Positions 2,614 to 16,621 of a stretch of 20,123 bases of DNA are shown piece by piece. Made by a program: the position numbers and the translations under genes. A model generated the notes under the pieces. The model had not been told where the DNA came from. It made no database searches and worked only from the letters and a program-made list of their open reading frames with translations. Position 1 is the first letter of the stretch. Each line of letters begins with the position of its first letter. The stretch is from a virus: positions 1-20,123 of IMG/VR virus record IMGVR_UViG_3300008450_000627; one strand, written 5' to 3'.

Positions 2614-2921
2614 TGGTTATAACAGTAATAATACTATCGCTGCTTTTGGTTGCTGCTTGCTGGTTAGCTTTTGCTAACTATCGCAAGTATGTAAAAGCAG
2701 TTGAATATGCAGAGAATGGATTCTTTGTGTATAATAGCTTTATAGCATCGCTCTATCGTAAATTTCAAGACACTGTGAACACTATGAACGTAATTGATCA
2801 TAGAGGTTCCTTTAAGGCTGATGATGAGGTAGGAGCTGCTTTTGAAAGTATGAAAGAGTGTGTAGATGAGTTAGACGAATATATTAAGCGCTATGTCCAA
2901 ACCGAGGAAAAAGAAAACTAA
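2613..2921 (+). CDS. Small membrane-anchored protein, 102 aa
   Basis: The product has one N-terminal hydrophobic helix (MVITVIILSLLLVAACWLAF) followed by a soluble, mostly helical domain with an acidic C-terminal part (SMKECVDELDEYIKRYVQ). With few positive residues before the helix and several after it (NYRKYVK), the positive-inside rule puts the domain in the cytoplasm. It starts on the stop of the HD gene (1-nt overlap), and its 3' end overlaps the sigma factor gene by 29 nt, which is long for this genome and suggests tight coupling. Its position beside the late sigma factor is suggestive, but I cannot assign a function. Confidence 0.65.
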   Translation: MVITVIILSLLLVAACWLAFANYRKYVKAVEYAENGFFVYNSFIASLYRKFQDTVNTMNVIDHRGSFKADDEVGAAFESMKECVDELDEYIKRYVQTEEKEN

Positions 2922-3597
2922 GAACTACTACTTCACAGCTGAAGTAGATGTTAGTATTAAGCAGCTTAATGCTACAGAAGATCAACTCGAAAGAGATAGA
3001 ATCTATCGCCAGGAAATTAAACCAGCCTTTGAAAAGCTTGTTGAGAATATAATCCACACCTTTAAATTCTACTACACTGACGGTATCTCCCTAAAGGACT
3101 TGCAGCATGAAGTAGTGAGTTTCTTAGTGGAAAAACTACCTAAGTTTACAGCTGACAAGGGAAAGGCTTTTAGTTATTTTAGCATTGTTGCTAAGAATTA
3201 CTTAATTTTAAACAATAACAAAAACTTCAAGAAGTTAGTAGATAGTGAGCAGCTCGAAGGAGCAAATGGCCATAGTTCTGCATTAGTTGTAGAAGAAGAG
3301 CCAACTCCAATTGATCATTTCATCCAGGATATGATAGGGTACTTTGACACAAACTTAACCAAAGTCTATCCTAAAAAGAATGATCAGATTGTAGTAGATG
3401 CTGTAATGGAGTTGTTTCGTAAAAAAGAATCTTTGGAAATCTTTAATAAGAAAGCTTTGTACATTTACATAAGAGAAATGACAAATGCAAATACCCAACA
3501 CATCACTAAGGTGATTAAGTCTCTTAAAGAGAAATATGTTAAGATGTATAACGATTACGATAAGATGGGATTTATTCCACGAAACATAATTTACTAA
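2893..3597 (+). CDS. 55: T4 gp55-like late-transcription sigma factor
   Basis: Family members replace the host sigma factor on RNA polymerase and direct it to phage late promoters, normally together with the sliding clamp. The protein has 234 residues (T4 gp55 has about 185). The signature lies at about residues 65-105: an LKDLQHEVVSFLVEKL helix, KFTADKGKAFSYF and SIVAKNYLI. This matches sigma region 2.1-2.2, in which the host sigma70 family reads roughly DL.QEG..GL..A...FD...G..FSTYA. A basic N-terminus (KPRKKKTKNYYF), an acidic linker around 130-140, and a basic helical C-terminal part (about 175-220) surround it. The extreme C-terminus (GFIPRNIIY) is hydrophobic, the position of the clamp-binding epitope in T4 gp55; that parallel is inference. 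The start is inside the upstream gene with no clear ribosome-binding site. Confidence 0.8.
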   Translation: MSKPRKKKTKNYYFTAEVDVSIKQLNATEDQLERDRIYRQEIKPAFEKLVENIIHTFKFYYTDGISLKDLQHEVVSFLVEKLPKFTADKGKAFSYFSIVAKNYLILNNNKNFKKLVDSEQLEGANGHSSALVVEEEPTPIDHFIQDMIGYFDTNLTKVYPKKNDQIVVDAVMELFRKKESLEIFNKKALYIYIREMTNANTQHITKVIKSLKEKYVKMYNDYDKMGFIPRNIIY

Positions 3598-3875: not shown

Positions 3876-4220
3876 ATGGATAAGGATAGTGTATTGTTCG
3901 ATGATAAAACGTTTAGCGACTTGTTGAGAGACGTCTATCAGAACACAAAAAAGAAAGAAACTCAAATTAACGGTTTAATAGATCAACTTAAAGGGTTGAT
4001 AAGAAACATTACAGATGCTTCTATGATGGTTCCTATGATTAAGGAGTATTTAGAAGTGTCGGTCAAGAACGACGACAATCTAGTTCGTCTAACTGCAATC
4101 ATTCAAAGGTTGCTAGTTACTGGTAGTAAAGAAAACAAAGAAGGTGAATTAGGCTTAACTGAACAAGAGAGAGCTCAGCTAATGTCTGAAGCACAAGAAC
4201 TCTTAGATAAGGCAAAATGA
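3876..4220 (+). CDS. Small helical protein preceding the hub genes
   Basis: This protein of 114 residues is predicted by eye to be almost entirely helical. It has an acidic start (MDKDSVLFDDKTF), a coiled-coil-like stretch (KKKETQINGLIDQLKGLIRNI), a middle helix (VPMIKEYLEVSVKNDDNLVRLTAIIQRLL), and a C-terminal helical hairpin after a Gly/Lys turn (TEQERAQLMSEAQELLDKAK). It is separated from the upstream gene by 30 nt and overlaps the first hub gene by 4 nt (ATGA), so it is the first gene of the baseplate cluster. That suggests an assembly or chaperone role in baseplate formation, but this is context only. Confidence 0.6.
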   Translation: MDKDSVLFDDKTFSDLLRDVYQNTKKKETQINGLIDQLKGLIRNITDASMMVPMIKEYLEVSVKNDDNLVRLTAIIQRLLVTGSKENKEGELGLTEQERAQLMSEAQELLDKAK

Positions 4221-5821
4221 GTAGTGTCTTTAAAGGCCTAACCGAGTACTATGGTACAGCAGCTGCACCTAGTAATACCTTTAAGGATGGTGAGGTCTTT
4301 ATAGGACAAGTATTGGATGTTGGAAAGAGTACTTCAAAGTTCACAATTGGAGTTAGTGAGATAACCCCAACACAGGATCCCTATGTCATAGGGATGATTC
4401 GTTTCTTAAAAGCAAATAGTGGTACCAAAGCGGAGAAAGACGTTACATTAATAGCAGAGCCATTAGACAGAGCAAACTACAGACTACCCTTTGCTGGAGA
4501 GCAAGTATTAGTTGTTAGAAAGTTAGGAAGGTATTACTATTTCGATGTGGTAACACCATCTTTCTTTCTACGAAACAATATCAATCCAACACTCTTGCAA
4601 GACGCCTTTGACTCGTCAGGAGCGCCAGCCATCACAGTCGATCCAGAAATTGAAGCACAGCGATTTGCATTAAAAAACGATTTTAGTGATAATGCTTTAA
4701 ATGGTAGAGCAGGATCGTTTACTCGTGTTAGAGAAGGAGATTCTATACTCGAAGGTAGGATGGGAGGTGTAATAAAATTTACACATACAATTACAAAGGA
4801 TGGAGTTTGGAACCCAGAAACGCAAATAACTAATATAGGTAAGAGTGCTGATGGTGATCCTATGTTGATAATGAAAGCTAGTGTTAGGAGAAAAGAAGTT
4901 AACGAAATAATACAGGAATCTAATCTGATAGAAGATGACGACATTAATGTAGAAGATTCAAGCTTCTACTTAACTACGTCGCAAAACGTGCCAATAAAAC
5001 TAGCTGCAAGTGTATCTATGAGTAGTTGGAGTGTAAATATAACAAAGGGTAAGTTTGGTTTAAGTGATGATCCTGCAGCACGATTCCAATCATTCTTCCC
5101 AGAACTGACCTATGACCCTAACTTTGTACCAAGTGTTAACGTTAGTGGACTTGAAAGCTTAGCTTACGATCCTAATGCGTCAAACGGATTGGGCAACATT
5201 ACAGGAGTTAGCGACCCAGGCGTACCAGGTTCCTCTGCAAAAGCTAAATCTTTTGATGAGCTTAAATTAAAATTCCAAGAGTTAGGATACAACTTCCCAA
5301 CTGGAGTGCACTTTGTAGGTATACGATCTGTAACAAACATTAATATCAACAATTCTGGAGTTCAAACAAAGAATAAATTCGCAGATTTAGTTGGCGTAGT
5401 TAACAGCAACACTGGAGAGGTTAAGTTCTTCCCAGCAACAACGGTACCGGGAAAGAGCTACTTACTCAATTTCTTTAAAGGTGAGACAAGGACAGCTATC
5501 TTAAAACCCGGCCAGTATAATAGTGTATATAAGATAGGACAACACAATAGTCAATATAAGGCGTTCAGAGAATCAGGAACCTATGTGATATACACAGACC
5601 GTAATCGGGACGACGTTCCAGACGCAACACCACAAAACGCTTCTGGTGTATTTGGAATGAACTTACATAGAGCTAGCGCTAATAGCGTTACCCAAAACGT
5701 AGATAATTATAGTGCAGGTTGTCAAGTATTCGCAGCACCAACATCATTAGCCGAGGTATTGCGCCAAGCAGAAGCAAGCGGACAACCAGCATTCACTTAC
5801 ACACTCTTAATGTCTTGGTAA
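4217..5821 (+). CDS. gp5-like baseplate hub paralogue A with L,D-transpeptidase-like C-terminus
   Basis: This is the first of three tandem paralogues (534 residues). The hub module, about residues 1-310, has FKGLTE at the N-terminus, an OB-fold-like segment (IGMIRF, PFAGEQVLVV), the motif REGDSILEGRMG at 172-183, ADGDP at 211-215, a YLTTSQNVPI strand at 251-260 and YDPNF at 299-303. The same motifs occur in cyanophage-type gp5 proteins. After a Gly/Ser/Pro linker (about 315-345), the C-terminal domain (about 346-534) contains GVFGMNLHRAS (H484) and SAGCQV (S499, C502). This resembles the His...Ser-x-Gly-Cys active site of YkuD/L,D-transpeptidases, which also include peptidoglycan endopeptidases and carboxypeptidases. 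It probably acts on the host wall during injection. The hub call is strong; the enzyme class is an inference from a short motif. Confidence 0.75.
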   Translation: MSSVFKGLTEYYGTAAAPSNTFKDGEVFIGQVLDVGKSTSKFTIGVSEITPTQDPYVIGMIRFLKANSGTKAEKDVTLIAEPLDRANYRLPFAGEQVLVVRKLGRYYYFDVVTPSFFLRNNINPTLLQDAFDSSGAPAITVDPEIEAQRFALKNDFSDNALNGRAGSFTRVREGDSILEGRMGGVIKFTHTITKDGVWNPETQITNIGKSADGDPMLIMKASVRRKEVNEIIQESNLIEDDDINVEDSSFYLTTSQNVPIKLAASVSMSSWSVNITKGKFGLSDDPAARFQSFFPELTYDPNFVPSVNVSGLESLAYDPNASNGLGNITGVSDPGVPGSSAKAKSFDELKLKFQELGYNFPTGVHFVGIRSVTNININNSGVQTKNKFADLVGVVNSNTGEVKFFPATTVPGKSYLLNFFKGETRTAILKPGQYNSVYKIGQHNSQYKAFRESGTYVIYTDRNRDDVPDATPQNASGVFGMNLHRASANSVTQNVDNYSAGCQVFAAPTSLAEVLRQAEASGQPAFTYTLLMSW

Positions 5822-5822
5822 T

Positions 5823-7445
5823 ATGAGCAGTACATTCACAGGCTTATCGGAGTTTGTTAACAACATCAAAACATTAGAGCAATCTAATGTATCCGATTAC
5901 AAAACATTATTCTTAGCGCAAGTACTCAACGTAGTTACAGGCGAGGATGTGGAGCAAGCTGCCTTAGAAGGATTGATAGATGAGCTTAATACGACAGCAA
6001 ACTACCAACTAATAGGAGCTATAAGGTACAAACGACAAACTACAGACGATAATAAATACGAAGACGAGGTAGCAAGCATAGCTTACCCAGCTGATCGTAG
6101 TAATATGCGACTACCAGTACCTGGTGAGTTAGTTCTAATTATGTCAACTCAAAGTAACTCTGGCGCGCCACAAAGGAAAGTTGAGTTATACACAAATGTA
6201 GTGACAGGAGCTAGTATTCCAAGATACGCATCGGATCCTAAGGCACTTACAAGAATAGATCGTATATCTAAGCCGGAGGGTTTCGTAAGCGGATTACTTA
6301 ACACAATAACGCAAGAAGTTGCAAATACTAGATTTCAATTAAGACTTGAGCATAAACCATTTACTTTTGTCAAAGAAGGTAGAACTATCTCAACAATGAG
6401 AGAAGGAGATATGATCGTTGAAGGACGTTTTGGAAATAGCATAAGGTTTACAAGTACAATACAAAAGGAAGGTGTGTGGAGCGATAGTCAAATGACTAGA
6501 ATAGATAATAGTGCTGATGGGGATCCTTTCTTAATTTTAAAAAACTCAAAGCCATTAGAACCTGAATTACCACAACCTGAGAATGGTATACCACAGTTAG
6601 TGGATGAGGATCCTAACGAAGATCAAAGTACAATTTACATTAACACAACACAAAACATTCCATTAATTATAGGCACTAGTAAAAAGATGTCAACTTGGGC
6701 AGTCGAGATACAGCGAACTACTAGAGAGGGTAACAAACTGCTAGCCTACACCGACCAAGCAGCACGACTACAGTCGTTCATTGAAGGCGAATACGACCCG
6801 GACTTTAAGGTATCTGTAACAGCTGACGTTGTATTTCCTGGAGAAGCTTTTGATGACGATCCAACAAACGATAAGGTTTTTGAAGGAGGTGCTAGTCAAC
6901 CAGTACCACTAACAGGACCAGCATCAACAAGACAGGAACAGTTGGTTAAGGCAGCTTTAGAAGCGTCCTTTGCACAAGGTGAAACGAAGCATAAATGCGC
7001 TCGCGGAACATTTAACCACGCAAATAATTATAGTTTATTAGTCAAAGGTCAAGCAGCGATACCAGGAATGAACGTCGCAGCTGGAGGAAATGCGAATGGG
7101 TCTGGATTTCACAACCATATGGTGCAGATAGGCTATACGAAGTTCCAAGTTAACAATATACCAAAAACTACTATGATAGCTATTTGTGAAAAAGGTCCAT
7201 TAGATAGTAACAATAATCACGTACCGTGGAATGTAGGAGATGCGATAACTTATTGGGCGTCAGATGGTAACCCAGGAGCATCTCACGTACAGTATGGACA
7301 TGCTCAAATGTATATAGGAGCTTTAACAGGAAAAGGAAATTGGACAACAGATAATAAGTATAATTACAATGGCAGCTCTTTTGTTTACAGAAGTCAAAGT
7401 TCTAATAACTGGAATTGTGTGATATTTAGAGCACCAAGAGCATAA
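5823..7445 (+). CDS. gp5-like baseplate hub paralogue B with CHAP/NlpC-P60-like C-terminus
   Basis: This second paralogue (540 residues) starts one base after the first one ends. The hub module has FTGLSE at 5-10, LIGAIRY, the LPVPGELVLIM loop at 97-107, REGDMIVEGRFGNSIRFTST at 193-212, ADGDP at 231-235, IYINTTQNIP and YDPDF at 324-328. An acidic linker follows (about 338-360). The C-terminal domain (about 365-540) has KCARGTFNHA (C392) and, 100 residues later, VGDAITYW and YGHAQMYIG (H493). This is the order of catalytic Cys, Gly-Asp turn and catalytic His seen in CHAP and NlpC/P60 amidases and endopeptidases, which cleave peptide or amide bonds of peptidoglycan. At DNA level its first bases resemble paralogue C more than A. 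The domain class is inferred from motifs. Confidence 0.75.
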   Translation: MSSTFTGLSEFVNNIKTLEQSNVSDYKTLFLAQVLNVVTGEDVEQAALEGLIDELNTTANYQLIGAIRYKRQTTDDNKYEDEVASIAYPADRSNMRLPVPGELVLIMSTQSNSGAPQRKVELYTNVVTGASIPRYASDPKALTRIDRISKPEGFVSGLLNTITQEVANTRFQLRLEHKPFTFVKEGRTISTMREGDMIVEGRFGNSIRFTSTIQKEGVWSDSQMTRIDNSADGDPFLILKNSKPLEPELPQPENGIPQLVDEDPNEDQSTIYINTTQNIPLIIGTSKKMSTWAVEIQRTTREGNKLLAYTDQAARLQSFIEGEYDPDFKVSVTADVVFPGEAFDDDPTNDKVFEGGASQPVPLTGPASTRQEQLVKAALEASFAQGETKHKCARGTFNHANNYSLLVKGQAAIPGMNVAAGGNANGSGFHNHMVQIGYTKFQVNNIPKTTMIAICEKGPLDSNNNHVPWNVGDAITYWASDGNPGASHVQYGHAQMYIGALTGKGNWTTDNKYNYNGSSFVYRSQSSNNWNCVIFRAPRA

Positions 7446-7447
7446 CA

Positions 7448-9097
7448 ATGGGTAGTACATTTAGTGGTTTATCGGAAGTATTAGGGCCTAACAACACAAA
7501 GCCAAACCCTTCGTCACGTAAGAAGGGTTCTGAGAGAATACTGCTTGGGCATGTACTGGATACAATCTTAGATGAATCATCACCATATTACAACTCTGAG
7601 TATGGCGTAGGAGCAATACGTTTTCGAGCAATACCAGAAGACTACAAAAAAGAAGAGAAGAACGTCAGTCTATTTGCATTCCCTGCAAACCGATCAAGGT
7701 ACCAAGTGCCCTTACCAGGGGAGCAAGTAATGATATACCCAGTGTTAGTAGGCACAAGATTGAAGTACGCTTACGGAACTATTGTAAAGCAGTCGCTGAA
7801 TATTGCGTATGGATCAGAGCCGTTTTTATCGACTACAGCTTTTAACATTGATAGAGATTTGTTAGATGCTTTGGTAAATGAACCTTTATTAGCTACTCGA
7901 TTCCAAGATAAGCTACAAATACCATATGAGGATTATGAAAATTCAAGCTATGGAGTAACCTCTCTGAGAGAGGGTGATACAATTCTTGAAGGAAGGTTTG
8001 GTAGTTCCATCTTATTCACAAGTACAATGGATAAGATCATCGTAAAGGATCTATACAGCGACCTGCATATAGGGTCAGATGTCCTAAGTAAGGTGCAGAC
8101 TACAGAAGATGGGGATCCTATAACAATACTGCAAGCAAGTAAAAAAATAACAACTGACGAGTCTTATCTCATAAAACCTTCAATCAATGAAACGGACTCT
8201 GTTGTGTATCTCACAAGCACACAAACAATTCCAATGGAAGTTGCAACTAGCAAAAGAATGGATACATGGAATATAAAAGTAACAAGACCAAAACCATTTC
8301 AGAGAGTAGAGGACTTTGAGTCTACAAGGTTGCAAGCTACGTTTGACGGTATATACGACCCTAATTTTAGATTTGAGATTAACTTAAATGTTGCTGGATT
8401 TGTAGGAGGAGGTGGTGGCTTTGATATTGGTTCATTAGGAAGTGGTGGATCAAAAGATGAAAATATTCGAGTGCTAATAAACGCTATGCAGCAGGCTGGG
8501 ATAACAAATCCATTCTCGCAAGTAGGGATATTGGGGGTTATAGGAAAAGAGTGTGGATTTATACCAAAGGATGAATACGGATACGGCAATACATCAAATG
8601 AGAGGTTGAGGCATTTATTTGGATCGAGATTGGATCAATTTGATGAACCAGAGCTTGAAGCCTTAAAGAAAAGGGATGAAGAATTCTATGATTACATCTA
8701 TGGATATTTGGATAAATCACCAGGAAAGGAATGGAGAAAGCACACTGAACCAGGAGATGGTTGGAAGTATCGTGGACGTGGTTTTAACCAAATAACGTTT
8801 AAGGCATCCTACGAGAAGTACGGTAAGATGGTAGGCGTGGATTTGGTAGCAGATCCAAATCAATTAAATAATGTTCCAACTGCAGCAGCACTTGCAATTA
8901 AATTTCTATTAAACGGAATTGCAGGAAAAAAGATTCAAAAAGAAAAGAATAGCTTTACGTCGATAGACGACGCTGTTTATTGGTTTGTAAGAGCAAATCA
9001 CGGCGGTGGTGAGGTGAGAGGATCTGAAGGACATTTAAAGGCCTTAGAGATTGCAAATGCACTTTACGCAGCTGGTGTGGTGGGGAGAGGGGTATAG
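7448..9097 (+). CDS. gp5-like baseplate hub paralogue C with GH19/lysozyme-like C-terminus
   Basis: This third paralogue (549 residues) starts 2 nt after the second. The hub module shows FSGLSE, VGAIRF, PLPGEQVMIY at 88-97, REGDTILEGRFGSSILFTST at 174-193, EDGDP at 220-224, VYLTSTQTIP at 253-262 and YDPNF at 303-307. A Gly/Ser-rich linker (about 318-335) leads to the C-terminal domain (about 336-549). This has IGKECGF with E368 at the expected catalytic Glu position, GDGWKYRGRGFNQIT at 436-450, YEKYG and VADPNQLNN. These are hallmarks of GH19 chitinase-like endolysins, which hydrolyse the glycan backbone of peptidoglycan. It is the closest counterpart of the lysozyme domain in T4 gp5, although from a different glycosidase family. 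Both calls look secure. Confidence 0.82.
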   Translation: MGSTFSGLSEVLGPNNTKPNPSSRKKGSERILLGHVLDTILDESSPYYNSEYGVGAIRFRAIPEDYKKEEKNVSLFAFPANRSRYQVPLPGEQVMIYPVLVGTRLKYAYGTIVKQSLNIAYGSEPFLSTTAFNIDRDLLDALVNEPLLATRFQDKLQIPYEDYENSSYGVTSLREGDTILEGRFGSSILFTSTMDKIIVKDLYSDLHIGSDVLSKVQTTEDGDPITILQASKKITTDESYLIKPSINETDSVVYLTSTQTIPMEVATSKRMDTWNIKVTRPKPFQRVEDFESTRLQATFDGIYDPNFRFEINLNVAGFVGGGGGFDIGSLGSGGSKDENIRVLINAMQQAGITNPFSQVGILGVIGKECGFIPKDEYGYGNTSNERLRHLFGSRLDQFDEPELEALKKRDEEFYDYIYGYLDKSPGKEWRKHTEPGDGWKYRGRGFNQITFKASYEKYGKMVGVDLVADPNQLNNVPTAAALAIKFLLNGIAGKKIQKEKNSFTSIDDAVYWFVRANHGGGEVRGSEGHLKALEIANALYAAGVVGRGV

Positions 9098-9099
9098 TG

Positions 9100-9130
9100 T
9101 TTGATTTAAACTAAAAATTTCGTATATTTA
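9100..9130 (+). promoter_or_regulatory. Candidate Bacteroidota-type promoter before the spike gene
   Basis: TTTG at 9100-9103 and TATATTTA at 9123-9130 are separated by 19 nt. The known Bacteroidota pattern is a TTTG -33 element and a TAnnTTTG -7 element with about this spacing; only the last base of the -7 element deviates. The ATG follows 10 nt later, so the transcript would have almost no leader. Confidence 0.4.
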
Positions 9131-9140
9131 AAATTAAAGT

Positions 9141-10061
9141 ATGAGCCAATCAATACAAGAGATAAGCCAACAAGGTACACTGGTTGCAGGAAGCTTCCAA
9201 GCTTCTGGTAGCAACGGATCAGGATCCAATGCAAGTGGCTCAGCTACATCAGGATCTGGTAGTGTGTTTGGCTTGCCAATGAAAGACTATCTATATGATC
9301 AAGGTATAACAGTCGATCCAATACAACCAGGTGCAGGACTTAAAGCAGTTGGATTGGTTGCAAACGGAAAGTTTATTGTAAATGATCACGATGCTGGAAG
9401 TCCATCGATATTGATAAATTCTGGACGAGTTATTGTGAACTCAAAAGATAGCCAGACTATTATAGCAGGTGCTCAAGGCGTTGCGTTAACATCACCAACA
9501 AGAGTAAATATAGATGCTGACGAAAGTGTTACAATATTTGGAGACTCAGGAGTTTACCTAGGCATACCAGCAAAAGGGCAACCACCTAAACCACTCTCGA
9601 TTATACCAGGAGACCCTAGATTCTTTAAAGAAGGTAAAAAGCTAAAATCATATCCATCACCAGACGTTCCTTACGAACCAATGGTATTAGGATTAAAGCT
9701 AATCAACTGGCTAGATGACCTACTTGTGGTGTTAAAATATCAACAATCACTAACACCAGTTGGCTATGCAACAGCAAGAGAAGACACGCAGTGGGATTTT
9801 ATGGCACTACAGACTAGGCTACAGGAGTTAATTTCCACAGAAGTTTTTGTAGATGGGTATTCACATGAACAACCTGACTACGATACGTTACCTAAGCCAC
9901 CAACTGATGCTGAGATCACAAAACCACAAACCTCTATAGACGTTAATGTTAACGCTAGCATCAGCAACCCGCTAACAACACCTTCAGTACCAGCTGGCCC
10001 AAATATAAGCAAACCAGGATACTACGAATCAGCAGGACCAACAGTTCCTGCACTAAACTAA
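9141..10061 (+). CDS. Beta-helical tail-spike (needle) candidate
   Basis: This protein of 306 residues has four visible parts. Residues 1-20 are a polar N-terminus. Residues 21-42 form a low-complexity Ser/Gly/Asn/Ala linker. About 57-142 is a run of short beta-strands with regular hydrophobic, Gly and Asp spacing (SILINSGRVIVNSKDS, QTIIAGAQGVALTSPT, RVNIDADESVTIFGDSGVYL), like the triple-stranded beta-helix of T4 gp5C and VgrG needles. The rest (about 180-306) is a helical segment plus a Pro-rich tail (EITKPQTS, ISNPLTTPSVPAGPN). There is no PAAR-like metal-binding pattern. It follows the three hub genes, so I infer that the needle, which is part of gp5 in T4, is encoded separately here. The A/T-rich leader has a candidate promoter. 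Confidence 0.6.
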   Translation: MSQSIQEISQQGTLVAGSFQASGSNGSGSNASGSATSGSGSVFGLPMKDYLYDQGITVDPIQPGAGLKAVGLVANGKFIVNDHDAGSPSILINSGRVIVNSKDSQTIIAGAQGVALTSPTRVNIDADESVTIFGDSGVYLGIPAKGQPPKPLSIIPGDPRFFKEGKKLKSYPSPDVPYEPMVLGLKLINWLDDLLVVLKYQQSLTPVGYATAREDTQWDFMALQTRLQELISTEVFVDGYSHEQPDYDTLPKPPTDAEITKPQTSIDVNVNASISNPLTTPSVPAGPNISKPGYYESAGPTVPALN

Positions 10062-10065
10062 TTAT

Positions 10066-10851
10066 ATGGCTAATTTAACAGGAACAATGTCATCGGTAAT
10101 GGGAGTCAACTTAGATACCGAAGCAGCAGCAAAGTACAGCGAGATGGTTACAGCCTTTGGTAGCGAAATGCCTTTGCTTTACGGATACGTGTCTGAGTGG
10201 GACTGGTATGCGGAAATGGCGCCATGTGCAATAGTCCAGGAATCTAAGATTGATGAGTTTGAGAAAGTAAAGGGTCTTATAGCAAAACCAGACCCTACAG
10301 AAGACGATCGTACAACTATAAGTAACTTTATGAGCCGTATTAGTGAATTTGATATGGCAAAGCATCCTAACGCTGGAAAAGCGTGGGCTGCTTTTGATAA
10401 GTTCAATCTAACCTGGCCCTCTCCTTTTTTCAAGAGTTCTGGATTGTCGTATGTTTACGGCTGGCCAAATGTACAGTCGTTGGATCCACGTCGCACAGGA
10501 AAAACTATTGTATTTCAAGACCCTTCTACATACTTTGAGTGGTTAATCGAGAATAGCTATAAGTATGGTTTTGTTTGGTACGGACCTACAAACGAGGTGT
10601 TTACCTACGTAGGACAGTCAGCAACATATAGTCCTGATTTTATTGCAGCTGCATCTATGGGATTAAAAGCTCCACTATACACTATCTACAAACAAGCTAA
10701 AGGGAAAGCACCAGCAAGTAAGCAAGAAATCGTAGACTGGGTAAACAACCTACCAGCTACTGGATACGTTGTTAACAATGGACTGATACCAAAAGACAAA
10801 TTAGCAAACTCATGGATAGCATGGGATCTGTTCATGAATAAAATAGCGTAA
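10066..10851 (+). CDS. Virion protein with a degenerate VanY/M15-like peptidase domain
   Basis: The protein has 261 residues and lies 4 nt after the spike gene. Residues 138-183 resemble the conserved core of VanY/M15 D-alanyl-D-alanine carboxypeptidases: a fragment shaped like HxxGxAxD, then WLIENSYKYGFVWYG at 159-173, then a strand ending TYVG at 180-183 where the family usually has WHFRYVG. All three expected zinc ligands are replaced: R142 for His, V149 for Asp and V178 for His. If the alignment is right, the domain is catalytically dead. The N-terminal 110 residues are helical and aromatic-rich (YVSEWDWYAEM), and the C-terminal 60 form helices. The context suggests a baseplate or hub component. 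The VanY relationship is a pattern reading and could be coincidental. Confidence 0.5.
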   Translation: MANLTGTMSSVMGVNLDTEAAAKYSEMVTAFGSEMPLLYGYVSEWDWYAEMAPCAIVQESKIDEFEKVKGLIAKPDPTEDDRTTISNFMSRISEFDMAKHPNAGKAWAAFDKFNLTWPSPFFKSSGLSYVYGWPNVQSLDPRRTGKTIVFQDPSTYFEWLIENSYKYGFVWYGPTNEVFTYVGQSATYSPDFIAAASMGLKAPLYTIYKQAKGKAPASKQEIVDWVNNLPATGYVVNNGLIPKDKLANSWIAWDLFMNKIA

Positions 10852-13800
10852 TGGATTTTCAAGAGATTTTTACTAAGAAGCTAGCTAATGACTTGGAGCA
10901 AGGGGTGTATGCAAATGCAGATGACTTTGCTGCTGGAATTACCAAGCATTATATGTCTTCGTTATCTCTGAACGCTCCAAACGGCATCCCACTAACAATG
11001 CCTTCTCCGTTAGCGGCAGGTACGCCGGTACCAGTAGGTCCAGGAAACTCAATTACAAATAAGACAAGAGAGAGAATATTTTATAATACGGTTAGAGTCT
11101 ATTTTGTTGGTAAGGAGATATCTCAAGGAAAACTCAGGATACAATCACTATCACAAGACATCCAATCAGCAATCACAACTTACAACAAACTAACCAGCGA
11201 GATTCAAGACCTGCAAATACAGATACAGAATCTAGATGACCAGCTTCGTGAGATTAGAGAAAAGATACAAAGTATTGTGCCTGAGTTTAAGAAGTTTATT
11301 AACACCAAAAAGGAGATAATAAAAAGCGCTTTAGATGAAGTTAAGACTTTAGGAGATAGGTTTAGACAACTAAGCGCACAAAATTTATCAGACTTTAACT
11401 TTAACGAAGTGATGGCGCAAGAAATTGCAGACTTGCAATCATTACTTAGTCTGAAAGTGGAGCCAAGTTTAAACATAGCGTCAATAGAAGAAACTTTTCA
11501 AACACTGACAAGCTTTGCACGCAGTTCTAGAAATATAGTGAATAAGTATAAAAACACTTTTACCAGAGAAGCCAATTTCAAAACTTACGTATCTAAAAAA
11601 ATAAGAGCTGTTGTAAATGAGTTTATGAAAATACTTAACGGCTTTATCAACCCTGAGAAGTTTATTGGATACTGGAAAGAGCTAATCTATGTGCCAGGTG
11701 GAAGGGTGATAGGCAATACAATGCTTCAAATTATCGAAAATAACAAAAAACTAAAGGAGCTTAAGAAGAAGTTGTTAGCTAAGGTAGAAGCTAAAAAAAT
11801 AAGTGTTAGAGCTCAATTAGATAAGAAGTTAGATGATCTAAAAAATAGATTAGCGGATACGATTAAGCGTGTACAAAGCAAAATTGCAAAAGAAAAGGAG
11901 TTAAATGGACGAACTAAGAGGAAGGAAAGATTAGCAGCTGGTCGAAAGGTTAGAGAAACCGCAAAGCGAGTAAAAGCAAAAGCAAAAAAGATTCGCAGAG
12001 CAATACGACACTACAGACTAATACTAGACACCATACAAACTATATTCACAAAACTGTTTACCATATACACGACAATAAAGCAAGCTATACAGCAAGCAAT
12101 AGATACGGTAGCGGATGTAAAAGAAAAATATGGTGAGATAAAGTCCAGCATAGAAGAGTCAATCTCAGCAGCTGCCAAAGAAGCACGTCAACAAGCTTTG
12201 AATGCATTTAAAAGAAACACAACATTGCTAAACGCAGATACATCTACTGCACAACTTTTAGAAAGCGTAGGCGACAGTACTCCAATAGTGAGACAAATAA
12301 TGGAGCAAGTTCAAAACCTATACAAGCTTAATCCACCACAAGTGGCAGCTTTTCTTAGAAGGGGTGGTGAAAAGGTTATGCTTGTCACAAAGAGCGTTGA
12401 GACTATATTAGCCGTCGATATACCTAGACTGAAAAAGCTACTATCAATAAAGCCTAATGATCCATATTACCAACAGCTAATGCAAGAGGTAGATCGTATT
12501 ACGGAAGATTATAATTCCGTTGAAGGTGGTGCGGTTGGGGTAGCGAGCATTGTGAGAGGAGATGTGGATAGACATATGACTTATCTGCGCTTGATAAGAA
12601 GCTGTCGGGTAATCAACAATAAAATAGACGAGGCTGAGGTAACGGTCCAAAGATTGATTAGCGATAAAGAAGAGGAGTTGATAGCTGTAGTACAGGAGCA
12701 ACAGTACTTAGATGAGTACATCAATACATTATTGGACACCAATCCAACAGCTAAACGAATAAGGAATAAAAAAAGGAAGAATGAGTTTAACATAGTGAAG
12801 GCAAAGGAAAAATTAAACAAGTTCAGAAAGCTTGCTAAGGAGGCTCGATTAGCATATCAACTAGTTGTAAATGCTCCTCGTGTATTTGTAGGATTAGTAC
12901 AAAATACTGATGCACCCATAACACAAAACGAAGCTGGTGTTAGACAATTAGTTAATACCTTTTTAGAACTACAACTCGAAAGGGGCAAAATTACAAGAGA
13001 TCAAAAGCAAGCTGATATTAAGAAGTTCAACGCTAAGGTTGCAGACTTAAAAGCGTACGAGCAGATATTTCTATTCTTTAAGCGAATCATAGAGGAATGT
13101 AAAGAAACGGGGTTAGTAGCTCAAATTAAAAAAATATACGAAGAGAAAGTGGTAGCTAAGGGAAATGCTATCCAAGGAGCAGCAACTGGAGTTTTTGAAA
13201 ATCTAATGGAGATATTAGATGGAGCAAGAAGCAAACCAACGTTGCAAGAGCTTGCAGCTATACCAGGGCAACTAAAGGCTCAAGGCGATTTAGCATACTC
13301 AATAATAAGAGCAGAAAAGGCAGCGTTTAAACGACTGAGAGTAAAAGCTGCTGGATTAGGAAGTTTTATACCACAGGATACGAGAGATCCTGGACTTCTT
13401 TATCTCCGATATAAGTTATCAAAAGTATCAGATTTAATTTTACCAATAATTGATGGTATAGGACTGTTCTTTAAAAAGATAGTGGAGCTTATAGAGGATC
13501 TTCTGGATCCTGTTATTGCCTACATAAAAGGAGAGGCTGCAAAGCAAAAAGAAAAACTCGAACAGGATGTCGCAGCATATGCTAAAGCAAAAGCCGATTC
13601 TAGGATAAATCTTGATGCTAAAATCATGTCTTTTATTTTTGGATTAGCTGGAAGATTGTTTTGGACGGGAATTAGTTGGACAAATCAATATGGTACCAAA
13701 TTTATTGTAACTAATGTTGGTAGATTTTACCCTCAAATGCAAGCTTTGAGCGAAAATGGTGCACAAGGATATGCAGAAGAGTTGGGAGAAGGATTTAACC

Positions 13801-13910
13801 GCCAACTTGAGCGTATGAGCGGTATAGCCATACCACCACTAAGTACCGGAATTGCACCGTTTACATGGCGTGGGTACTTGTCAAAACAAGACTATGTCAT
13901 AGGTTACTAA
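10851..13910 (+). CDS. Large coiled-coil structural protein, tape-measure candidate
   Basis: This protein of 1019 residues starts on the stop of the previous gene. The first 90 residues look like a compact N-terminal domain (FTKKLANDLEQG, then a Pro-rich segment). About 93-190 is a long coiled coil (for example IQDLQIQIQNLDDQLREIREKIQ). About 290-395 is extremely Lys/Arg-rich and helical (RVKAKAKKIRRAIRHYR). About 395-450 is an amphipathic helical stretch (IQTIFTKLFTIYTTIKQAIQQ), and more coiled coil follows up to about 800. A hydrophobic stretch near 860-895 (LILPIIDGIGLFFKKIVELI) could interact with membranes. Long helical rods with such a segment are typical of tape measure proteins; at roughly 1.5 angstrom per residue the tail would be near 150 nm. 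A large baseplate protein is the alternative. I see no peptidase motif. Confidence 0.6.
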   Translation: MDFQEIFTKKLANDLEQGVYANADDFAAGITKHYMSSLSLNAPNGIPLTMPSPLAAGTPVPVGPGNSITNKTRERIFYNTVRVYFVGKEISQGKLRIQSLSQDIQSAITTYNKLTSEIQDLQIQIQNLDDQLREIREKIQSIVPEFKKFINTKKEIIKSALDEVKTLGDRFRQLSAQNLSDFNFNEVMAQEIADLQSLLSLKVEPSLNIASIEETFQTLTSFARSSRNIVNKYKNTFTREANFKTYVSKKIRAVVNEFMKILNGFINPEKFIGYWKELIYVPGGRVIGNTMLQIIENNKKLKELKKKLLAKVEAKKISVRAQLDKKLDDLKNRLADTIKRVQSKIAKEKELNGRTKRKERLAAGRKVRETAKRVKAKAKKIRRAIRHYRLILDTIQTIFTKLFTIYTTIKQAIQQAIDTVADVKEKYGEIKSSIEESISAAAKEARQQALNAFKRNTTLLNADTSTAQLLESVGDSTPIVRQIMEQVQNLYKLNPPQVAAFLRRGGEKVMLVTKSVETILAVDIPRLKKLLSIKPNDPYYQQLMQEVDRITEDYNSVEGGAVGVASIVRGDVDRHMTYLRLIRSCRVINNKIDEAEVTVQRLISDKEEELIAVVQEQQYLDEYINTLLDTNPTAKRIRNKKRKNEFNIVKAKEKLNKFRKLAKEARLAYQLVVNAPRVFVGLVQNTDAPITQNEAGVRQLVNTFLELQLERGKITRDQKQADIKKFNAKVADLKAYEQIFLFFKRIIEECKETGLVAQIKKIYEEKVVAKGNAIQGAATGVFENLMEILDGARSKPTLQELAAIPGQLKAQGDLAYSIIRAEKAAFKRLRVKAAGLGSFIPQDTRDPGLLYLRYKLSKVSDLILPIIDGIGLFFKKIVELIEDLLDPVIAYIKGEAAKQKEKLEQDVAAYAKAKADSRINLDAKIMSFIFGLAGRLFWTGISWTNQYGTKFIVTNVGRFYPQMQALSENGAQGYAEELGEGFNRQLERMSGIAIPPLSTGIAPFTWRGYLSKQDYVIGY

Positions 13911-13951: not shown

Positions 13952-14326
13952 ATGAAACTAAGTCAATTTAAGTCCATGTTGCGTGAGCTTATCCGTGAGG
14001 AGGTTCAAATCGCAGTGCGTACTGAGATTAAAAAGCTTAATGAAGGTAAGCAGTCTATGCCTAAACCAAACCAAGCTTTGCAAGTAAACAAAAGAACTAC
14101 ACCGCTAGTAACTCTTGACGAGCCATTTACCACGGTAGGAGGACCTCTAGGCGATTTGCTAAACGAAACAGCACAAACAATGGCTGGTTTTGGAGAAGAG
14201 TCAGTGGAGCAAGCAAACCCAGACTTTCCAACAATAGGAGCATCAGCAACAGATATGTTTGTTAAGGATTATTCATCTGTCCTAAAGAGATCAGAAGAAT
14301 TAAGTAATCCAAACTTTAGACCATAA
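13952..14326 (+). CDS. Small protein with basic amphipathic N-terminal helix, upstream of gp25
   Basis: I place the start at 13952, giving 124 residues, rather than at the in-frame ATG at 13865. The longer form would overlap the previous gene by 46 nt and begin with an out-of-character stretch, whereas 13952 follows a clean A-rich leader. The N-terminus is an amphipathic helix rich in charged residues (LSQFKSMLRELIREEVQIAV). N-termini of this kind recur in many marine and environmental T4-like phage proteins, as I remember it. The rest is Pro/Thr-rich and acidic with short conserved-looking turns (DEPFTTVGGPLGDLL, NPDFPTIGASATDMF), suggesting an extended protein that binds other baseplate parts. 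The stop overlaps the gp25 start by 1 nt. The function is unknown. Confidence 0.65.
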   Translation: MKLSQFKSMLRELIREEVQIAVRTEIKKLNEGKQSMPKPNQALQVNKRTTPLVTLDEPFTTVGGPLGDLLNETAQTMAGFGEESVEQANPDFPTIGASATDMFVKDYSSVLKRSEELSNPNFRP

Positions 14327-14742
14327 TGGCGTATATTATACAAGTCAATCCAGTAGACCTAGAAAAGAATGTAGCTTTGGGTTTGGATCTTCCGTTGGCG
14401 GGAGAGAGAGGAGCGACTTTTAAGCAAAATTACTTTACAATAGATCAAGCAGAGGCCAATGCTAAAAACCTCTTACTAACTGAGCCTGGCGAAAGAGTAA
14501 TGCTTCCGGAGTTTGGATGCGGTTTAAAGAAGACTATTTTCGAAAACCTTACGCAAGAAACTCTACAAGCTTTAAGTCTAAGAATAAGAAATAGCTTCCA
14601 AACATTTTTGCCTTACATATTTATACAAAAGTTAGAGCTCACACCAGACGCAGAAACAAATACGCTTTTTGTTAAGTTGGATATAAGCTTAGATGAGTTA
14701 GGATTCGACACAAGATCAATATTATTGGAAGTAAATGGCTAA
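14326..14742 (+). CDS. 25: Baseplate wedge protein, gp25/GPW family
   Basis: The protein has 138 residues (T4 gp25 has 132), so it is full length. The family signature is clear: NAKNLLLTEPGERVMLPEFG at 45-64, including the EPGER motif at 53-57 and the PEFGCGL turn. An amphipathic helix (about 74-93) and a beta-strand pair (about 112-137) follow, as expected for the gp25-like lysozyme-related fold, which is structural and not catalytic. In contractile tails gp25 nucleates the tail sheath and joins the wedge to gp6 and the inner baseplate. It overlaps the previous gene by 1 nt and the gp6-like gene by 8 nt, consistent with a co-translated wedge module. Confidence 0.92.
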   Translation: MAYIIQVNPVDLEKNVALGLDLPLAGERGATFKQNYFTIDQAEANAKNLLLTEPGERVMLPEFGCGLKKTIFENLTQETLQALSLRIRNSFQTFLPYIFIQKLELTPDAETNTLFVKLDISLDELGFDTRSILLEVNG

Positions 14743-16621
14743 TCAAGATATAAAATACTACGGAAGAGATTTCGATTCTATTAAACAAGGTTTAATTGAG
14801 TTTGCTAGAGCCTACTATCCGGATTCCTATACAGACTTTAACGAAGCATCACCAGGATCATTGTTTATTGACCTAGCAGCTTATGTGGGTGACGTATTAG
14901 GATATTACACAGACGCTAATTTTAAGGAGTCTATGTTGCTGCACGCTCAAGAGCGTAGAAACCTACTAAGTATAGCATCAGCACTTGGCTACAAACCTAA
15001 GTTATCTGTACCTGCACAAGTAGATTTAGATGTATATCAACTAATACCTGCAAGTGGTTCTGGAAATGGTAGTACACCAGACATAAGATATGGTTTAAAA
15101 ATTGAACCAGGTCTAGAAACAAGATCAACAGGAACAGGCATTACCTTTACTGTACAAGACGCTATTGATTTCCGAATTAATAATACGTTCAATCCTACAG
15201 AGTACTCGGTCTATAGCATAGATAACACTACTGGCAATCCGATATACTATTTGGCTAAAAAAACAGTTAAGGCAATCAGTGCTGCTTTGCAAACGCAAAC
15301 TTATACAATAACCTCTCGCGAAAGATTTACAAAAATATTCCTACCAACCACTACAACAAATCCAATCATAGGATTAGATAGTATAGTAGACTCAGATGGA
15401 AATACTTGGTATGAAGTTCCATACTTAGCGCAAGATACTATATTTGAGCAAGTGGAGAATACAGCGTACAATGATCCAGACGCAGCAGTTTATAGTAACG
15501 AGACTCCATACCTTCTTAGATTAAAAAAAGTACCAAGAAGGTTTATAACTCGTGTAGTAGAGGGTGGATTAGAAATACAATTTGGTTCTGGAGTATCAAA
15601 CACACCAGACGAAGAGTTGTTGGCAACACCAGAGCAGATTGCAATAGCTACTGCAACCGGTAAAGCAGACACAGACGCATCTCTAGATCCAAGCAATCCA
15701 CTATTAACGTCCACATATGGAATAGCTCCATCAAACACAACACTAACGGTTAGCTACTACACAGGAGGAGGTGTAGCTTCCAACGTACCATCAAACACAA
15801 TTACGGAGATCACCTCAATAAACACTACAAACTCAACATTACCAACAAGTACGCCAACGCTAAACAATACAGTAATACAGAGTGTTATTGTAAACAACAC
15901 AACTGCAGCTGCTGGAGGTAGGAATGAAGAAACAATAGAGGAGATAAGACAAAATGCATTAGCACAGTTTTCTTCACAAAATAGAGCTGTTACTAGAGAA
16001 GATTATATCATGCGCTGCTACTCAATGCCAAGCACATTCGGCTCAGTAGCCAAGGCCTTTATAGCACCTGACGAGCAAAACAATATAGGTACATCGGAGG
16101 TTAATGATACGGTAGCAAATCCATTGGCATTGAATTTGTTTGTGTTGGGATATAACGACAGTAAGCAGTGTTCTATAGTAAACAGAGCAGTAAAAACCAA
16201 CTTAGCAAACTACTTAGATCACTATAGAATGCTTACCGATAGCATCAACATTAGAGATGCCTATGTTATCAATATTGGAGTTAAATTTGACATACTTCCA
16301 AGCCCTAACTTCAATAGCAATGAAGTCTTAGCTCGCTGTATACAAAGATTAAAAGAACACTTTAATATTGACAGATGGCAAATCAACCAACCCATTATAC
16401 ATAGTGAAATTATGATGGCATTGTTGGGAGTAAAAGGAGTGCAGACAGTTTCTAATTTAGCAATTCAAAACCTAAATAGCGTAGCTGACGGATATAGTGA
16501 CGTGCTCTACGATATTGCAGGAGCAACTAAAAATGGAATAACATACCCAAGCCTAGACCCAGCCATCTTTGAAGTAAAATTCCCAGACAGAGACATCGAA
16601 GGCAGAATAACATCTTTCTAA
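14735..16621 (+). CDS. 6: Baseplate wedge protein, gp6/baseplate-J family
   Basis: The protein has 628 residues (T4 gp6 has 660). The N-terminal 90 residues carry the gp6 signature: YYGRDFDSIKQGLIEFARAY, DFNEASPGSLFIDLAAYVGD, then ESMLLHAQERRNLLSIASALGY. The middle (about 95-385) is beta-rich and Thr/Asn-rich. At about 390-430 lies the baseplate-J motif (AGGRNEETIEEIRQNA, SQNRAVTREDYI). The C-terminal part ends in a helical and beta dimerisation-type region. In T4, gp6 dimers form the ring that holds the baseplate together and rearranges during sheath contraction. The 8-nt overlap with the gp25-like gene and the 1-nt gap to the next gene place it in the wedge operon. Confidence 0.9.
   Translation: MANQDIKYYGRDFDSIKQGLIEFARAYYPDSYTDFNEASPGSLFIDLAAYVGDVLGYYTDANFKESMLLHAQERRNLLSIASALGYKPKLSVPAQVDLDVYQLIPASGSGNGSTPDIRYGLKIEPGLETRSTGTGITFTVQDAIDFRINNTFNPTEYSVYSIDNTTGNPIYYLAKKTVKAISAALQTQTYTITSRERFTKIFLPTTTTNPIIGLDSIVDSDGNTWYEVPYLAQDTIFEQVENTAYNDPDAAVYSNETPYLLRLKKVPRRFITRVVEGGLEIQFGSGVSNTPDEELLATPEQIAIATATGKADTDASLDPSNPLLTSTYGIAPSNTTLTVSYYTGGGVASNVPSNTITEITSINTTNSTLPTSTPTLNNTVIQSVIVNNTTAAAGGRNEETIEEIRQNALAQFSSQNRAVTREDYIMRCYSMPSTFGSVAKAFIAPDEQNNIGTSEVNDTVANPLALNLFVLGYNDSKQCSIVNRAVKTNLANYLDHYRMLTDSINIRDAYVINIGVKFDILPSPNFNSNEVLARCIQRLKEHFNIDRWQINQPIIHSEIMMALLGVKGVQTVSNLAIQNLNSVADGYSDVLYDIAGATKNGITYPSLDPAIFEVKFPDRDIEGRITSF

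Follow-up and report, generated by a model that had tools for sequence, protein, structure and literature searches.

In bacteriophage T4, gp5 is cleaved into gp5*, which comprises the OB and lysozyme domains, and the beta-helical gp5C, and the products are held in a (gp27-gp5*-gp5C)3 complex whose trimerisation is driven by gp5C (PMC3004832). Vibrio cholerae encodes the spike paralogues VgrG-1, VgrG-2 and VgrG-3, which carry different C-terminal domains or, as in the unextended VgrG-2 (PMC3166118), none, and for which heterotrimers have been proposed (PMC3166118, PMC8668125). In Anabaena phage A-1(L), the baseplate hub protein gp15 unites lysozyme, endoglucanase and peptidase domains (PMC10966104). 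Here we analyse a 20,123-base fragment (the window; positions 1 to 20,123 of IMG/VR virus record IMGVR_UViG_3300008450_000627) in which three adjacent genes, A, B and C, combine a shared N-terminal module with a different wall-degrading domain each. We conclude that the triplet is real and conserved and that it represents a version of the gp5 spike not described so far, for which an A:B:C heterotrimer is the best, if unproven, reading; the literature searched, which covered few subscription journals, contained no report of a phage whose spike subunits are three paralogues.

As in T4 gp5, an N-terminal adapter module, a wall hydrolase and a beta-helix needle appear to come together in a baseplate hub. 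However, in T4 a single gene yields a homotrimer that bears three lysozymes, whereas the window has three paralogues with three different enzymes, which, unlike in gp5, lie at the C-terminus of the module protein. In addition, gp5* and gp5C are separated by cleavage in T4, while module and needle are separate genes in the window. T6SS (type VI secretion system) VgrG proteins belong to a bacterial secretion system, with vgrG genes at different loci and effectors mostly directed against rivals or host cells; the window instead holds one phage operon with wall hydrolases only and a separate needle gene. In A-1(L) gp15 all domains reside on one homotrimeric polypeptide that is a gp27-type hub rather than a spike, whereas here they are spread over three spike paralogues.

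The three open reading frames (ORFs) nearly abut, with 1 nt between A (4217-5821, 534 residues) and B (5823-7445, 540 residues) and 2 nt between B and C (7448-9097, 549 residues), and they lie in the same cluster as the baseplate genes gp25 and gp6. An earlier note on this DNA had described them as sharing an N-terminal module and diverging completely after it, and both statements hold. The module spans approximately 305-330 residues, with pairwise identities of 33-38% over about 305 residues, and all of its landmarks are in place in A, B and C, respectively: FxGLxE (FKGLTE, FTGLSE, FSGLSE), REGDxIxEGRxG (REGDSILEGRMG, REGDMIVEGRFG, REGDTILEGRFG), (A/E)DGDP (ADGDP, ADGDP, EDGDP), a TSTQxIP-like strand (TTSQNVP, NTTQNIP, TSTQTIP) and the boundary (YDPNF at 299-303, YDPDF at 324-328, YDPNF at 303-307). 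A single profile that also covers distant single-copy relatives matches all three modules at E <= 1e-69, and the sharing is not due to chance. Past the YDP(N/D)F boundary, the C-termini show no mutual BLAST similarity at E <= 1e-3.

The assignment of the module to gp5 is based mainly on its fusion to the needle in some single-copy relatives. The gene directly after C encodes a core, INSGRVIVNSKDSQTIIAGAQGVALTSPTRVNIDADESVTIF, which its repeat pattern identifies as beta-helix-like, together with an EPMVLG...WLDDL segment. In Flavobacterium phage immuto (gp116), Microcystis phage Mel-JY01 and loci L017, L028, L041 and L069, this core follows the module in one polypeptide, and the window needle matches the fused regions of immuto gp116, Mel-JY01 and others with E-values from 2e-2 to 2e-7. 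In many other relatives the core is a small gene directly downstream of the module gene. Since needle and module are fused in relatives, A, B and C would be the counterparts of T4 gp5*, and the gene after C that of gp5C. An OB-type module followed by a beta-helix is the plan of gp5 and VgrG spikes. The structure model of the module (mean predicted local distance difference test score, pLDDT, 73.6) contains a region of five to seven strands whose pattern is compatible with an OB fold; the module would probably consist of an OB fold plus short beta strands, for which the models and profiles are suggestive. A search of the window with Pfam Gp5_OB gave no match, but the controls were equally silent and the search is hence uninformative, and the 51-row module profile found no match among PDB sequences. 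In the viral fold library, weak matches to VgrG and central-spike proteins were obtained, the chief return being a further triplet of the same family. When the needle profile was compared with that of the C-terminal portion of huge-phage gp5, the signal was too weak to be used.

Searches of IMG/VR used the module as well as each slot as query; the family sample consists of the best 80 of 387 hits, and its loci are partly redundant. Related phages with the same triple arrangement, for which the earlier note had proposed a search, do exist: A, B and C occur in the same order in every one of the seven contigs that reach the end of C, namely the window, L005, L006, L007, L011, L088 and L095 (L010, a near copy of L088, is cut in C and stands outside the seven). 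The whole contigs L005 (131 kb), L006 and L011 contain three module copies each and no further ones. The module is present as one copy at the same place in 58 single-copy loci complete through gp25, compared to six triplet loci complete that far; the single-copy set includes the cultured phages immuto and Mel-JY01 and the huge phage LR756508. Triplet and single-copy loci share their synteny both upstream (an HD-type protein, a 234-residue protein and a 114-residue protein) and downstream (gp25, gp6 and a 365-residue protein). Thus immuto gp116 and Mel-JY01 WWT39504 belong to the same module family and stand in the same synteny ahead of gp25 and gp6, but differ from the window in being single-copy, in having the needle fused to the module and in having no recognised enzyme domain. 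L096 has the closest gene neighbourhood, yet it encodes a single enzyme-less module of 295 residues followed by a separate GH108-type gene. The contig of L013 stops 91 bases past the module gene, so that copies cannot be counted there, and a search of bacterial genome contigs found no relatives. UniProt entries A0A6J5M8U1, A0A6J5MDN0 and A0A6J5MII8, returned by the viral fold library search, are a further A/C/B set from an uncultured Caudovirales phage and are annotated merely as uncharacterised and GH19.

In a maximum-likelihood tree of 37 modules, A, B and C form three clades with support of 100/99, 100/100 and 100/99, which indicates that the triplication predates the radiation of this lineage. 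The closest single-copy relatives fall outside these clades, the L013/L096 pair forming a clade of its own, and 15 distant single-copy modules lie on the other side. Among the window, L006, L007 and L088, the ratio of non-synonymous to synonymous substitution rates (dN/dS) of the module falls at 0.05-0.16 for each of the three slots wherever dS is computable; by this measure purifying selection acts on all modules.

The enzymes, in the order A/B/C, are of phrog_3000-type, CHAP-like and GH19 in the window, L005 and L006; phrog_3000-type, CHAP-like and GH24 in L007; divergent lysozyme-like, M23 and GH19 in L088 and in L010 (cut in C); phrog_3000-type, VanY-M15 and divergent lysozyme-like, as in slot A of L088, in L011; and GH24, CHAP-like and GH19 in L095. 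In L012 slot A is without any enzyme, which resembles the unextended VgrG-2 of V. cholerae, and B is cut by the contig end. A CHAP label for slot B of L010/L088 and L011 was dropped, as Pfam shows M23 and VanY. Slot B holds a peptidase-type domain every time, and no complete set lacks a glycosidase-type domain. The divergent lysozyme-like cassette of slot A in L088 is related to that of slot C in L011 (49%, E 3e-54), and the GH24 cassette of slot C in L007 to that of slot A in L095 (63%, E 4e-79). Since each of these two cassettes is found in slots A and C of different phages, the enzymes have changed slots, whereas every module has remained in its own slot. Across the module family Pfam recognises GH19, GH24, M23, VanY/M15 and Amidase_2 hydrolases; the sole hydrolase of single-copy relatives, where recognised, is M15/VanY or Amidase_2. 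In L096 the GH108-type lysozyme gene (8812-9774) directly follows the lone enzyme-less module, and Mel-JY01 has a separate GH19 gene (WWT39505) at the same place. The gene order suggests that the enzymes were neighbours of the module gene before they were fused to it.

The earlier note had assigned an L,D-transpeptidase-like domain to A, a CHAP/NlpC-P60-like domain to B and a GH19/lysozyme-like domain to C. The last of these stands on a PHROG endolysin match (4e-21), a Pfam GH19 match that falls slightly short of the Pfam cut-off (1.5e-4) and the matches of a C-terminal profile to solved GH19-type endolysins (best 3.5e-16); the acidic motif is retained, with the glutamates of KECGF and KDEYGY present, and C is likely a glycosidase. 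For A, the H...SxGC motif is present and the domain matches phrog_3000 (1e-22), endolysin phrog_33083 and proteins of crAss-like/Bacteroides phages, but Pfam, NCBIfam and PDB sequences gave no match to a YkuD-type L,D-transpeptidase, and 'L,D-transpeptidase-like' is a label by motif. For B, the C...GH...(N/D) motif carries the label, with the Cys and His positions invariant in four homologues and a block-mean pLDDT of about 80-92 over most of the domain; searches of Pfam, NCBIfam, PDB sequences, PHROG and folds returned no CHAP or NlpC-P60 match. It is plausible that A and B act on peptides.

Relatives of the A domain occur as a standalone gene in L006 (3163-3756) and at the C-terminus of the gp5-like protein of huge phage LR756502 (L001; 13388-14902), and a GH19 domain related to that of C forms the C-terminus of the neighbouring gp27-like protein (8900-11551) of the same phage; unlike A, B and C, these two enzyme-bearing hub-type genes are not paralogous to each other. 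Relatives of the B domain are located within large tail-type proteins of other phages, about 630-1130 residues long (L122 586-3897, L123 589-3990, L124 1621-3516). Since relatives hold separate lysis-type genes elsewhere (peptidoglycan-binding plus GH19 on the L005 contig, a standalone phrog_3000-type gene in L006), A-C are not needed as endolysins.

The fusion of the needle to the module, the triplet in seven of seven contigs and the unrelated C-termini bear out the description of A, B and C as gp5-like spike paralogues in a fixed triplet. We infer their location in the virion, the formation of trimers, the A:B:C ratio and the enzymatic activities of A and B: most likely, though by no wide measure of confidence, A, B and C are gp5*-type spike paralogues of a contractile-tailed phage that assemble as one A:B:C heterotrimer with a shared needle. 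In such a scheme, A, B and C would have arisen through two successive duplications of one gene, which the rest of the family has in single copy and whose product is most likely a homotrimer there. One copy of each would form a pseudo-threefold heterotrimer within the baseplate hub, and the needle protein, encoded separately and equivalent to gp5C, would cap it as a homotrimer. Upon tail contraction the needle would pierce the outer membrane, and the tip would then bring the GH19 glycosidase of C, the cysteine-peptidase-type domain of B and the SxGC-type, probably peptide-acting domain of A to the same spot of the wall. That the heterotrimer is obligate, its slots being fixed positions for interchangeable wall hydrolases, we hold to be somewhat better than evenly supported. 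An A:B:C spike is the simplest way to account for a single needle gene, a single hub locus and module clades that number exactly three and are not interchangeable. The modules would be non-equivalent, since recombination between equivalent tandem copies would be harmless and the enzymes were exchanged, yet the modules were not; the retention of an enzyme-less slot-A module in L012 points to a structural role.

Several points weigh against a heterotrimeric spike. An hhalign comparison of the module with bona fide gp5 homologues (membership by annotation) is weak (P = 0.0025, probability 12%), with collinear strands, and Foldseek searches of two models against the PDB returned OB/beta-barrel folds that were all below significance. 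For the enzymes of A and B the assignment comes from motifs only, and the family sample was restricted to the best hits, in part redundant. In the T6SS of Aeromonas the need for several VgrGs depended on their effectors, and such a need can thus arise without obligatory heterotrimers (PMC8668125). Finally, three homotrimers, stacked or at different baseplate positions, give the same copy number. If A3, B3 and C3 were all present in the virion at different places, stacked on the axis or elsewhere in the baseplate, with one of them the true spike, each paralogue could have retained the self-assembly presumed for the homotrimeric single-copy relatives, and the long stems leading to A, B and C in the tree would fit distinct structural positions. 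Against this, each locus has a single needle gene and a single set of baseplate neighbours, and complete loci have exactly three copies and never two; we regard separate homotrimers as unlikely, albeit the alternative to be taken most seriously.

It is also conceivable, at a distinctly lower probability, that each virion carries A3, B3 or C3, or random mixtures of them, such that the population varies in its wall-cutting enzyme in the manner of alternative VgrGs. Several VgrG proteins are often encoded per T6SS genome (PMC6971182), and the fast turnover of enzyme cassettes would suit such alternative tips. However, adjacent interchangeable modules should recombine or homogenise, while A, B and C stay separate clades as enzymes move; the enzyme-less slot A of L012 would yield virions without enzyme; and the tight gene coupling suits joint use. 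The exact copy number, the slot identity kept despite enzyme moves, the single needle gene and the enzyme-less slot A of L012 are thus the reasons for which we favour the heterotrimer over three alternative tips. Improbable to a still greater degree is that the module is another baseplate-associated hydrolase carrier, for instance a peripheral one in six copies. Although no significant fold or profile match to gp5 or VgrG was obtained and gp27 was not identified in the window, the beta-helix needle is fused straight to the module in cultured relatives, the weak OB match to gp5 is collinear, and the viral fold library matches, weak as they are, point to VgrG and central-spike proteins.

If the heterotrimer is correct, a symmetric homotrimeric spike has become a tip with three enzymes, in which the structural slots are fixed and the enzymes can be exchanged; were it obligate, one puncture would make three cuts that complement one another, and the hub would no longer be threefold symmetric. 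The family would then offer a natural experiment on the change from homo-oligomer to hetero-oligomer, with single-copy outgroups at hand, and a natural case of several wall-cutting activities at one point, which bears on tailocin biology and on the means by which phages get through the walls of bacteria in the environment.

Table. Positions in the window of the triplet and of the genes around it.
Feature	Positions	Strand	Basis or remark
114-residue protein, function unassigned	3876..4220	+	Syntenic marker; directly precedes the module gene in almost every relative
Paralogue A, N-terminal spike module (residues 1-303), putative	4217..5125	+	Profile match; clade A support 100%; model mean pLDDT 73.6
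Paralogue A, C-terminal wall-hydrolase-type domain (residues 359-530)	5291..5806	+	phrog_3000 family, H...SxGC motif
Paralogue B, N-terminal spike module (residues 1-328), putative	5823..6806	+	Alignment, profile, tree
Paralogue B, C-terminal cysteine-peptidase-like domain	6945..7442	+	CHAP/NlpC-type by motif
Paralogue C, N-terminal spike module (residues 1-307), putative	7448..8368	+	Alignment, profile, tree
Paralogue C, C-terminal GH19 glycosidase domain	8471..9094	+	PHROG, Pfam, C-terminal profile
Needle gene: beta-helix core (about 9405-9566) and EP(M/L)VLG...WLDDL region	9141..10061	+	Core homologous to the segment fused in relatives
261-residue conserved protein, perhaps a degenerate VanY/M15-like fold lacking the catalytic motifs	10066..10851	+	Weak
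1019-residue helical/coiled-coil-type protein	10851..13910	+	Conserved in triplet clade and L096
gp25-like baseplate wedge protein	14326..14742	+	Library matches; anchors the locus as baseplate
gp6 / Baseplate_J-like wedge protein	14735..16621	+	Library matches

Among the neighbouring genes, the 261-residue protein, which is kept in the triplet clade and L096, gave an hhalign P of 0.0018 to VanY domains; it contains NSYKYGFxWYGP, and DPRRTG in place of the metal-binding motif, and is possibly a pseudo-enzyme in the baseplate. The 234-residue protein (2893-3597), syntenic with the hub family-wide, has no Pfam match and by eye resembles late sigma factors of the T4 gp55 type. Elsewhere on the L005 contig (G001) there are a PAS/histidine-kinase-type gene (74105-75184) and a long run of genes (107817-128060) that, judged by eye, look like sugar-metabolism and glycosyltransferase genes.

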